Part shown: in pieces, positions 1,636 to 22,773 of the stretch
Position numbering within the stretch: the stretch's first letter is position 1
Layout: each line of letters begins with the position of its first letter
Virus record (IMG/VR): IMGVR_UViG_3300013014_000071
Coordinates: 1-36,136 of that record
Source of the DNA: a virus
Length of the DNA: 36,136 nt
Direction: 5' to 3' (one strand)
Program-made: the position numbers and the translations under genes
Notes under the pieces: model-generated
Seen by the model: only the letters and a program-made list of their open reading frames with translations
Database searches by the model: none
Told to the model about the DNA's origin: nothing

Positions 1636-1664
1636 TTGTTCAATTATTAAATTTATGCTATAAT
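1636..1664 (+). promoter_or_regulatory. Sigma70-like promoter, extended -10
   Basis: TTGTTC (1636-1641), a 17 bp spacer, then TATAAT (1659-1664) preceded by TGC, giving an extended -10 TGCTATAAT. Transcription would start at about 1671, which is the A of the primase ATG, so the message would be leaderless. A host-type promoter fits early expression of the replication genes. Confidence 0.65.
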
Positions 1665-1670
1665 ATAGGG

Positions 1671-2645
1671 ATGTTTGATATCCTATCTATTATTCCAGGT
1701 AAAAAAAAGAATACTCAATCTGGATGGACTTCTTTTAATGCCATATGTTGTGGGTATCGGGGGCATAAGCCAGACCAAAGAATGCGGGGTGGTATTAAGT
1801 TTGATGGCGATACTGCGTGGACTATGCATTGCTTTAACTGTCAATTTAAGTGCGGGTTTATCTTAGGTAAAAGTATTTCTCCAAAGACTAGACAGTTGCT
1901 ACAATGGTCTGGAATCGAAGATTCTCAGATAACTAAATGGAGTCTAGAAAGTCTACAACATAAAGATTTGTTAGATTATATACGAGTAAAAAAACAAAAA
2001 AGTAGAATTAAATTTCAGGATCATACATTACCTGAAGGAGAATTAATTGATATTAATAATCCTCAGCACACTGTATTCTCAGAGTATTTGTTGAGTAGAA
2101 GTATCAATCCTAATAGTTATCCATTTTTAATTACCCCTCACGAAAAAGGTAGAAATGGTAATCGTATCATAATTCCATATACTTATAAAAATAAAATAGT
2201 TGGACATACTAGTAGATTCTTAGATAATAGAATCCCCAAATATATTAATGAGCAACAACCCGGTTATGTTTTTAATATTGATAGTCAAAAACCTGATTGG
2301 CAAGTATGTATTGTTACTGAGGGAATATTTGATGCACTAAGTATTGATGGGGTGGCAGTAATGCACAATGATATTAATAACGACCAAGCAACATTATTGG
2401 GATCATTGAATAAGCCAATCATACTAGTTCCTGATAGAGATAATACAGGATTAGCGTTATGTGATAAAGCATTAGAGTTAGGATATAAAATTAGTTTACC
2501 AAATTGGGATATAGATGTTAAAGATGTAAATGATGCAGTAGTAAAATATGGAAAATTACCAACATTGTTAAGTATATTGCAGGCAGCAACTAGTAGTAAA
2601 ATTAAGATAGAATTAAAGAGGAAGCAAATTGCTAAAGGAATATAA
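1671..2645 (+). CDS. DNA primase, DnaG/gp61 type
   Basis: A 324-residue primase that would lay RNA primers for lagging-strand synthesis in the primosome with the helicase encoded next. A zinc-binding N-terminus is visible: CC at 26-27, H32, then HCFNC at 53-57 and C61. A TOPRIM domain follows, with the acidic motif VTEGIFDALS (E near 217) and the DRD motif PDRDNTG (around 255-257). Its length is close to T4 gp61 (342 residues). The ATG has no real Shine-Dalgarno and coincides with the predicted transcription start of the promoter at 1636-1664. Its 3' end overlaps the helicase start by 17 nt, which suggests translational coupling. Confidence 0.92.
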   Translation: MFDILSIIPGKKKNTQSGWTSFNAICCGYRGHKPDQRMRGGIKFDGDTAWTMHCFNCQFKCGFILGKSISPKTRQLLQWSGIEDSQITKWSLESLQHKDLLDYIRVKKQKSRIKFQDHTLPEGELIDINNPQHTVFSEYLLSRSINPNSYPFLITPHEKGRNGNRIIIPYTYKNKIVGHTSRFLDNRIPKYINEQQPGYVFNIDSQKPDWQVCIVTEGIFDALSIDGVAVMHNDINNDQATLLGSLNKPIILVPDRDNTGLALCDKALELGYKISLPNWDIDVKDVNDAVVKYGKLPTLLSILQAATSSKIKIELKRKQIAKGI

Positions 2646-19146: not shown

Positions 19147-19175
19147 TTGACAGAAATGCCAAGCTAGTGTAAAAT
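19147..19175 (+). promoter_or_regulatory. Sigma70-like early promoter
   Basis: TTGACA (19147-19152), exactly 17 bp, then TAAAAT (19170-19175). This is a near-consensus host promoter, in contrast to the late boxes elsewhere, and points to early transcription of the next two genes. The leader carries ACGGAG as RBS. Confidence 0.8.
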
Positions 19176-20392: not shown

Positions 20393-20833
20393 ATGACAAA
20401 GCAAATTGACTTAAACAAGTATAGCGAATTTGTAGAGGCTGTAACTAGCCGAGATAGTAACGATTTAGCATCATTTATCAATCGTTTAGATTACCTAGAT
20501 GGAATGTGGGATGATAAACTTGAAGAAAAGGGTCCAACAATTAATGTCCCTCTATTACTAACTTCTGCAATTGGATTGGGTAGTGAATCAGGAGAGTTCC
20601 AAGAAATTGTTAAAAAACTGTTTTTTCAAGGTAAATCTCTTACTGAAGAAACCAAATTTCATATGAAGAGGGAATTGGGAGATATTTTATGGTATTGGAC
20701 CAATGCCTGTAGGGCACTTGAATTGGATCCTAATGATGTTATTTCTGAAAACGTTACTAAGTTAAAAGCAAGATATCCCGGTGGAGACTTTGATCCCTTT
20801 TATAGCGAGAATCGTAAAGAAGGAGATTTGTAA
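20393..20833 (+). CDS. MazG-like nucleotide pyrophosphohydrolase
   Basis: A 146-residue all-helical NTP pyrophosphatase. The metal site pattern E-x-x-E...E-x-x-D is visible as ESGEF (E65, E68) and KRELGDILWY (E94, D97), followed by the family's ENVTKLKARYP motif. The length fits single-domain phage MazG. Phage MazG proteins are proposed to hydrolyse dNTPs or to lower host alarmone; the substrate cannot be told from the sequence. It sits 1 nt after an early unknown gene and probably shares its sigma70-like promoter. Confidence 0.92.
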   Translation: MTKQIDLNKYSEFVEAVTSRDSNDLASFINRLDYLDGMWDDKLEEKGPTINVPLLLTSAIGLGSESGEFQEIVKKLFFQGKSLTEETKFHMKRELGDILWYWTNACRALELDPNDVISENVTKLKARYPGGDFDPFYSENRKEGDL

Positions 20834-20848
20834 CATTAATGATTGCTT

Positions 20849-20856
20849 GATAAATA
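20849..20856 (+). promoter_or_regulatory. Late promoter GATAAATA
   Basis: GATAAATA 22 nt before the gp13-like ATG at 20879, just after the MazG stop. It separates late neck expression from the early operon upstream. Confidence 0.6.
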
Positions 20857-20878
20857 TAGTTATTATCAGGTAATCATT

Positions 20879-21676
20879 ATGAGCATAGGACCAGTTGCAA
20901 GTGTTTTAAGTACCCCATCTGGATTAACATTAGATCAATTAAAACAAGCATTATTTAATAACGTTAGTCTTAGATTGGGTCAAGGTATCATTGATTTAGA
21001 ACTTGATCCTCAACATTATGAGGCTGCATACAATTATGCCATTAAAATTTATAGACAACGGGCGCAAAATGCCACTGCTGAATCCTATACTTTAATGACG
21101 GTTATTAAGAACATTGACACTTATACATTACCACAAGAATTTATTAATGTTCGTTGTTTATTCAGAAGAACGGTTGGCTTAGAAACTGGGCCTAGTTCTA
21201 CAGCATTTGATCCTTTTTCAAGTGCTATTCTTAATACTTACTTATTGAATTACAACTATACAGGTGGTATGGCAACATATGATTTCTATGCTGGTTATGT
21301 TGAATTAGCAGCAAGAATGTTCGGTGGATATGTTACATATACATTTGATCCAGTAACAAAAGTATTGCGTGTAGTGAGAGATTTTAAAGGTACTGGTGAG
21401 CGTATTCTTATTTGGGCGGATGTTCAAAGAACAGAAGAAGTATTGCTACAAGATCCAGGTGCTGGTGTTTGGATTGGTGACTTTGTGTTAGCTAATCTTA
21501 AGACAATTATAGGTGAGGCACGTGAGAAATTTGGAACCATTGTTGGTCCAGGTGGTGGAACACAATTAAATGGTACTGCTATGAAAGCTGAAGGTAAGGC
21601 TGCAATGGAACAATTAATTGATGAATTAAAACGTTATGTGGACTATTCGCAACCATTGACATGGGTGCAAGGCTAA
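20879..21676 (+). CDS. Neck protein, gp13-like
   Basis: A 265-residue protein matching the gp13 neck pattern: an N-terminal helical region (QLKQALFNNVSLRLG, then YEAAYNYAIKIYRQRA), the TYTLPQEFINVRCLFRR strand, and a C-terminal helix with LANLKTIIGEAREKFG and MEQLIDELKRY. Gp13 binds the portal and receives the tail through gp14. T4 gp13 is 309 residues. The start at 20879 is chosen over an upstream TTG because CAGG lies before it and the TTG would sit upstream of the late promoter at 20849. The partner gp14-like gene is on the opposite strand about 1.8 kb upstream, an unusual split. Confidence 0.8.
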   Translation: MSIGPVASVLSTPSGLTLDQLKQALFNNVSLRLGQGIIDLELDPQHYEAAYNYAIKIYRQRAQNATAESYTLMTVIKNIDTYTLPQEFINVRCLFRRTVGLETGPSSTAFDPFSSAILNTYLLNYNYTGGMATYDFYAGYVELAARMFGGYVTYTFDPVTKVLRVVRDFKGTGERILIWADVQRTEEVLLQDPGAGVWIGDFVLANLKTIIGEAREKFGTIVGPGGGTQLNGTAMKAEGKAAMEQLIDELKRYVDYSQPLTWVQG

Positions 21677-21696
21677 CCTAAATACTTTATTTTGTA

Positions 21697-21731
21697 AAGC
21701 TCCTGTAATATAATATATCTTACAGGAGCTT
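21697..21731 (+). promoter_or_regulatory. RBS-sequestering hairpin with TATAAT in its loop
   Basis: AAGCTCCTGTAA (21697-21708) and TTACAGGAGCTT (21720-21731) form a perfect 12 bp stem. The right arm holds the RBS AGGAG (8 nt before ATG 21737). The 11 nt loop starts with TATAAT; a transcript starting about 7 nt after it (near 21721) would have no left arm. No T-run follows, so it is not a simple terminator. Confidence 0.7.
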
Positions 21732-21736
21732 ACCAT

Positions 21737-22372
21737 ATGATCATCGGTATCACCGGATTAATAAATTCTGGCAAGGACACTATAGCAGACTATCTAACTA
21801 CATTTCATGATTTTAAAAGATTAAGTTTTGCCGCTTCTCTAAAAGATGCTGTAGCATCAGTGTTTAATTGGGATCGTGAAATGCTAGAGGGTACTACTAA
21901 GTCTAGTAGGGAATGGCGTGAACAGGTTGATCATTGGTGGGCAGAACGTTTAGGTATCCCTCATCTTACCCCTAGATGGATTCTACAATATTGGGGAACA
22001 GACGTTTGTCGTGATGCATTTCATACGGATATTTGGGTAGCATCAGTAGAAAACAAATTAAGAAACTCTACAGATAATATCGTCATCACTGATTGTAGAT
22101 TTTTCAATGAAATTGGGGCTATTAAAAATGCCGGTGGAATTACTATTAGAGTTGAAAGGGGTCCAAACCCAGAATGGTATTCACATGCTATAAACTTTAA
22201 TAAAGGTGAAAACGGTAATTTAGGCTGGGCTCTTGGGAGGAACCATCTTGAACAATTGGGTATCCATGCTAGCGAATACAGCAGTGTTGGATTAGAGTAT
22301 GACTATGTTATTGCTAATGATGGCACAATAGATGGACTTCATAAAAAGATTGAATCAATAATCAACCTTTAA
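21737..22372 (+). CDS. Deoxynucleoside monophosphate kinase, gp1-like
   Basis: A 211-residue kinase that phosphorylates dNMPs to dNDPs for phage DNA synthesis. The P-loop GLINSGKDT is at residues 6-14. Other family motifs are RWILQYWGTDVCRD (about 87-100) and ITDCRFFNE (about 117-125). Length is close to T4 gp1 (241). The RBS AGGAG is buried in a perfect hairpin at 21697-21731, so translation is probably switched by promoter choice. The 3' end overlaps the antisense HNH-like gene by 18 nt. It is set among late virion genes, not among other nucleotide genes. Confidence 0.92.
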   Translation: MIIGITGLINSGKDTIADYLTTFHDFKRLSFAASLKDAVASVFNWDREMLEGTTKSSREWREQVDHWWAERLGIPHLTPRWILQYWGTDVCRDAFHTDIWVASVENKLRNSTDNIVITDCRFFNEIGAIKNAGGITIRVERGPNPEWYSHAINFNKGENGNLGWALGRNHLEQLGIHASEYSSVGLEYDYVIANDGTIDGLHKKIESIINL

Positions 22373-22733: not shown

Positions 22734-22757
22734 GGCACGGTAATACCGCCTTTTTTT
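22734..22757 (+). terminator. Probable rho-independent terminator
   Basis: GG-CA-CGG pairs with CCG-CC around loop TAATA (a 2 nt bulge), followed by seven T. It would stop plus transcripts from the dNMP kinase side before the sheath promoter. The stem is short, so its strength is uncertain. Confidence 0.45.
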
Positions 22758-22765
22758 ATTTATTT

Positions 22766-22773
22766 CATAAATA
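22766..22773 (+). promoter_or_regulatory. Late promoter CATAAATA for the sheath gene
   Basis: CATAAATA 53 nt before the sheath ATG, giving a leader of about 48 nt with the RBS AAGGAAA. It follows directly after a terminator-like element. Confidence 0.55.

Follow-up and report, generated by a model that had tools for sequence, protein, structure and literature searches.

The translation of the deoxynucleoside monophosphate (dNMP) kinase gene in a group of uncultured T4-like phages is probably controlled by a cis-acting switch, a hairpin that hides the Shine-Dalgarno (SD) sequence of the gene and carries the promoter of the gene inside it. The kinase gene follows a neck gene whose leader contains a hairpin of the same design with a promoter of the opposite, late class, and judging from the sequences, the two adjacent genes appear to be insulated by class-matched promoter-in-hairpin switches. 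The window (the whole stretch of DNA that was analysed, 36,136 nucleotides) is a 36-kb fragment of one such phage, and the features given with coordinates between 19147 and 22773 below are on its plus strand.

The kinase hairpin

The kinase gene (21737-22372; phrog_139, E 5e-48) encodes a T4 gp1-like protein of 211 aa. It is preceded by a left, anti-SD arm AAGCTCCTGTAA (21697-21708), an 11-nt loop TATAATATATC (21709-21719) and a right arm TTACAGGAGCTT (21720-21731) containing the SD AGGAG (21724-21728). The loop opens with TATAAT (21709-21714), a predicted sigma70-type -10. All 12 bp of the stem are paired and AGGAG is buried, exactly as the original prediction had described. The window has three sites with a perfect stem of 12 bp or more and a loop of 3-20 nt, and none of 20 whole-window dinucleotide shuffles has any; the local fold of the kinase hairpin is -32 kcal/mol (z -2.45 vs shuffles).

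The kinase transcript is predicted from this geometry to start at ~21721, about 7 nt past TATAAT, which would drop the entire left arm; this earlier claim holds positionally. For the homologous gene 1 of T4, a start at 75393 is mapped and listed as middle promoter P1 (PMC2988021, Table 1). The nucleotide 7 nt past its TATAAT is exactly 75393, the listed P1 start, which supports the 7-nt rule and a start near 21721 in the window. Read-through RNA from upstream would contain both arms and fold, so that the SD would be hidden and the kinase left untranslated, while RNA started from the loop would lack the left arm and expose AGGAG before the AUG at 21737. Kinase translation would in this way depend on the gene's own early/middle-type sigma70 promoter and be independent of late transcription, and any early read-through, crossing the gene.

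Folding predictions agree with this scheme in most leaders. The unpaired probability of the kinase SD was 0.00 in read-through RNA of both the window and G001, a relative of 335 kb that shares the kinase leader, and 0.64-0.76 in own-promoter RNA. The median SD accessibility in 51 distinct kinase leaders was 0.00 in read-through RNA, 0.53 in RNA from their own promoter and 0.31 after shuffling of the left arm; the read-through value was <0.2 in 35 of the 51 leaders vs 10 after left-arm shuffling, and at least 0.2 in ~16. In one subgroup (L021, L026, and L043) the promoter is retained, but the predicted fold leaves the SD largely exposed. Among 235 SD-bearing starts in the window and G001, only those of the kinase and neck genes of both sequences (four starts) had a fully buried SD that an internal promoter would release; these four SDs had unpaired probabilities of 0.5-0.86 in RNA from the predicted starts. 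Our first switch scan listed the G001 neck gene and other genes; the window neck gene, whose SD is only CAGG, was recovered by the accessibility scan.

Conservation and covariation among relatives

Kinase-encoding loci with 65-93% identity (n = 80) were compared, and most of them have a TATAAT-like hexamer ~25-30 nt 5' of the ATG, between complementary arms, with the SD in the right arm. The 39 distinct kinase leaders of alignment A1 were chosen for having the element, and the pair counts describe such leaders: 91.5% of the cells of the ten inner stem pairs are paired, eight of the ten pairs are doubly changed, and 35 cells are doubly changed vs 11.0 ± 2.6 in shuffles (0/500 shuffles reach 35). 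Pairing falls to 35-50% when the partner is slid by 1-3 columns, and RNAalifold recovered the same helix. There are 48 G.U cells vs 11 A.C cells, an asymmetry as expected for plus-strand RNA; the fixed SD and AT bias account for part of this excess, and relatedness and AT bias make its p-value indicative only. Comparison of the stem in related phages had been proposed as a check of the original prediction; the covariation in the 39 leaders is strong, and this conservation was decisive in our accepting the kinase hairpin as real.

The same data bear on a DNA-level reading, in which the inverted repeat is an operator, a dimeric repressor blocks the central -10, and the SD in the arm is accidental. 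A palindrome centred on a -10 is indeed typical operator geometry, but the arm sequences change while pairing is kept, G.U cells far exceed A.C cells, and the loop length varies between relatives. In addition, the genomes have only one copy of the element: covariance model R1 gave one strong match each, located at the kinase, in 11 of 12 large records. The neck leader has the same geometry with a different sequence. We therefore consider an operator improbable.

It is even less probable that the hairpin is the 3' end of the neck mRNA (a terminator, processing or stability element) and not a control element of the kinase, although it starts only 20 nt past the neck stop codon. There is no U tract, ACCATATG follows the stem, and the hairpin is absent from the terminator scan; the lack of a U tract rules out an intrinsic terminator. 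Genes lie between neck and kinase in ~20 loci, and in most of these the element remains before the kinase, even though the genes directly upstream are then unrelated ones and not neck. All exact copies that were found precede a kinase, except in L003/L083, where the copy stands before an HNH gene that is inserted at the start of the kinase. In this locus (L003:3966-5000; L083) the HNH homing-endonuclease ORF separates the kinase from its promoter hairpin, whose loop has the inverted orientation.

The element is absent before the kinases of L032, L052, L074, and L080. A near-identity search of isolated phages gave no match, and the kinase hairpin with TATAAT in its loop was not found in the leaders of the isolates T4, CBB, GAP32, XbC2, BF, Kaldavass, 121Q, PA5oct, RaK2, and Phosso. 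In the isolated jumbo phages CBB, GAP32, XbC2, and BF, the place of the hairpin before the kinase is taken by an intrinsic terminator. The kinases of L019, L024, and L040 are without an SD and have TATAAT or TACAAT 16 nt 5' of the ATG, with a predicted 4-nt leader. Both the terminator and the SD-less arrangement may be alternative means of making the kinase depend on its own promoter. Two further leader types were seen: in Sinorhizobium phage Phosso (L098:1440-1492) a long stem extends into the kinase SD and has a loop without TATAAT, and in L044, L062, L072, L075, and L079 a sigma70-type promoter is followed by a different hairpin, whose loop contains the SD and whose right arm ends directly at the ATG (e.g., AGAGT..ACTCT-ATG).

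The predicted promoter in the kinase loop

The loops of all 39 kinase leaders contain a sigma70-type -10 (TATAAT in 28, TATACT in 7, and one-off variants in the rest). In the window this -10 is perfect, and it lies a 17-nt spacer downstream of a weak -35-like TTTATT (21686-21691), which is part of a conserved upstream element, CCTAAAnACTTTA(T/C)T (21677-21691), in alignment A1. TTTATT matches the consensus at 3/6 positions, and at 4/6 in several relatives; the window kinase promoter did not pass a consensus promoter scan. Most of the 39 leaders have TTTATT, TTTACT, TTTTCT, or TTTATA 16-18 nt upstream of the -10. The distant relatives L044, L062, L072, and L079 have a TTGACC- or TTGACG-type -35 with TATAAT or TATACT at the same place, including a near-consensus TTGACC-N17-TATAAT before the kinase. 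The original prediction of no good -35 is thus right about strength (3/6), but it overlooked the CTTTA(C/T)T conserved near that spacing and the TTGACC of the distant relatives.

The kinase promoter, as read from these alignments, is compatible with a sigma70-type middle promoter that has a weak -35 and needs an activator; an activator may be needed at this -35. A MotA box (TGCTTTA at 12 ± 1 bp from the -10) was not found, 21687-21696 reading TTATTTTGTA; CTTTA of the relatives lies at about 17-19 bp from the -10, which is not the T4 MotA spacing, and a MotA box at the kinase promoter was ruled out by this wrong spacing. The kinase leader resembles that of T4 gene 1 with its P1 promoter in having its own TATAAT shortly before the ATG of a homologous gene and a short leader, but in T4 gene 1 a MotA box lies 11 nt from the -10 and the SD is not in a hairpin, while the leader in the window has the hairpin and lacks a MotA box at that spacing.

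Could the loop promoter instead be of the late class, making the element an ordinary late switch of the T4 e type? The resemblance of TATAATATA to TATAAATA and the presence of TAAATA in the window at 21679 favor such an assignment, but the late core ATAAATA occurs in 0/39 kinase loops vs 49/49 neck leaders, and the distant relatives have TTGACC-N17-TATAAT; we regard a late loop promoter as unlikely. TAAATA at 21679 was also rejected as a real late promoter in its own right: it is not conserved (CCTAAACAC, CCTAATAC), and its RNA would start at ~21690, upstream of the hairpin, which that RNA would retain.

In G001, many small genes are preceded by strong TTGACAATAA-N-TATAAT promoters and other genes by ATAAATA-type motifs; in the window the ATAAATA-type motifs precede structural genes.

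The neck gene and the order of genes

The neck gene (head-tail adaptor Ad2, late structural; 20879-21676, ATG at 20879; phrog_211, E 7e-24) has a left arm AATGATTGCTTGATAA (20838-20853) and a right arm TTATCAGGTAATCATT (20863-20878) that buries the SD CAGG (20867-20870). The late-type promoter GATAAATA (20849-20856) lies across the left arm and loop, and the late RNA is predicted to start at ~20862, just before the right arm. All of the 49 distinct neck leaders from relatives with an identity of 55% or more contain ATAAATA. In 45 of these 49 leaders, 78.8% of stem cells are paired, vs 31-52% in slid controls, and 100 cells are doubly changed vs 49.5 ± 5.3 in shuffles; two of five covariation measures did not exceed shuffles because the outer stem is variable. 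An equivalent neck hairpin, CCCCTAAATA...TTTAGGGG, is found in the isolates CBB, GAP32, XbC2, and BF. From its layout, the neck hairpin would be the classical T4 e/I-TevI arrangement, with the late RNA start before the right arm. The original prediction did not mention this matching late-promoter hairpin. It would act as the mirror device of the kinase switch, so that for either gene only a promoter of the matching class would lead to expression.

Upstream of the neck gene, a strong sigma70-type promoter, TTGACA-N17-TAAAAT (19147-19175; 11/12 matches, the best in 4 kb), precedes a 395-aa gene and mazG, a MazG-like pyrophosphatase gene of nucleotide metabolism (20393-20833; phrog_229, E 4e-43). 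Downstream of the kinase are the tail sheath and tube genes. A possible intrinsic terminator, GGCACGGTAATACCGCC-T7 (22734-22757), read from the sequence and not in the terminator scan, lies between the kinase/minus-strand ORF and the tail sheath gene, which has a late-type promoter, CATAAATA (22766-22773), before it. The order is thus sigma70-type promoter (19147), 395-aa gene, mazG, late-promoter hairpin, neck, sigma70-type-promoter hairpin, kinase, possible terminator, late promoter and sheath, and it suggests that the hairpins separate expression classes.

This order also leaves some room for the same switch having a different main target, namely early read-through RNA from the 19147 promoter (395-aa gene, mazG, neck, and kinase), with the kinase being delayed to the middle phase. 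The strong upstream promoter on the same strand, the weak kinase -35, which suits a middle promoter, and the middle promoter of T4 gene 1 (PMC2988021) are in its favor. On the other hand, the hairpin would silence both kinds of read-through, and late RNA from the neck promoter would begin 0.85 kb upstream and meet no clear terminator on the way to the kinase. We see early RNA as a possible main target, though a doubtful one.

Comparison with known systems

RBS-sequestering hairpins with internal late promoters were described for T4 e, soc, I-TevI, segB, and mobE (PMC3014915; PMC2988022), and every gene under such control is a late one that is also carried on early/middle RNAs (PMC2988022). Like T4 e, soc, and I-TevI, the kinase SD is in a helix of the read-through RNA according to folding and covariation, and the kinase promoter is placed so that its own RNA would lack the left arm. 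Unlike T4 e and I-TevI, the kinase loop is without the late-class TATAAATA, while the neck leaders carry the late motif throughout. The kinase promoter appears to be sigma70-type, and the gene is a dNMP kinase among late virion genes. The T4 e/I-TevI comparison made in the original prediction is therefore sound for the mechanism (PMC3014915; PMC2988022) but not for the class, because those systems use late promoters on late genes. Since both the kinase promoter and the gene are of the early/middle kind, the timing appears to be reversed relative to the published T4 late-gene cases. The kinase switch, with its opposite promoter class, is a new variation on the T4 late-gene scheme; tandem switches of opposite classes were not found in the literature searched (open-licence papers).

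In the IS10 and IS50 transposase genes, fold-back of external read-through RNA protects from read-through expression. By analogy, the kinase element may be compared with these, having a host-type promoter at an inverted repeat and an SD that would be hidden in read-through RNA; the IS elements use this for transposon self-protection, while the kinase case would belong to the temporal programme of a phage metabolic gene.

clpP and other leaders

The ClpP leaders of related jumbo phages (L128:8540-8610, corresponding to G001 248605; L148, L149, L159, L171, L173, L183, and L186) have a TTGACA-N17-TATAAT type promoter in a stem-loop hiding an AAGGAA-type SD. Median SD accessibility in 21 clpP leaders was 0.30 in read-through RNA, 0.73 in RNA from their own promoter and 0.43 with the left arm shuffled. 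The clpP -35 is consensus, unlike that of the kinase, and the stem is weaker and less uniform. We take clpP to be a probable further early-class case, in a weaker version.

Some other leaders are described here in their own right. The gap between the late promoter NATAAATA and the ATG is bimodal in G001 (L116-L132), being 4-8 nt (26 sites, mostly 4-5) or 16-26 nt, and the window sites 4073, 7363, 28627, and 29464 were noted together with these. RNA of the short-gap class would start on or beside the AUG, predicting leaderless late mRNAs. A leaderless mRNA is also predicted at window 1659-1673 and G001 102939, where TATAAT lies exactly 6 nt 5' of the ATG in both; this gene adjoins a helicase-like ORF and is putatively primase-like by its position. 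The 301-aa gene at G001 190618 (L125) has its SD in a stem and AGTAAATA in the loop, and is possibly another late-type switch.

Biological meaning

We propose a general scheme in which these T4-like jumbo phages alternate early/middle genes with late ones on a single strand, and in which the insulation between them acts on the RNA. Boundary genes would carry an SD-hiding hairpin with an internal promoter of their own class, so that the initiating holoenzyme would select the translated gene; the opposite-class tandem of neck and kinase would be the main example and clpP a further early one. We put the chances of this general scheme at about even. The arrangement is compact and the silencing would need no protein, so it can easily be tested with short reporter segments. 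If the scheme is true, the T4 lysozyme-type switch would be a two-way insulator, beyond a brake on late genes, and a phage could mix expression classes within one operon without terminators. It would also explain why a nucleotide-metabolism gene lies between the neck and tail sheath genes, and hairpin loops would predict the promoter class in uncultured phages.
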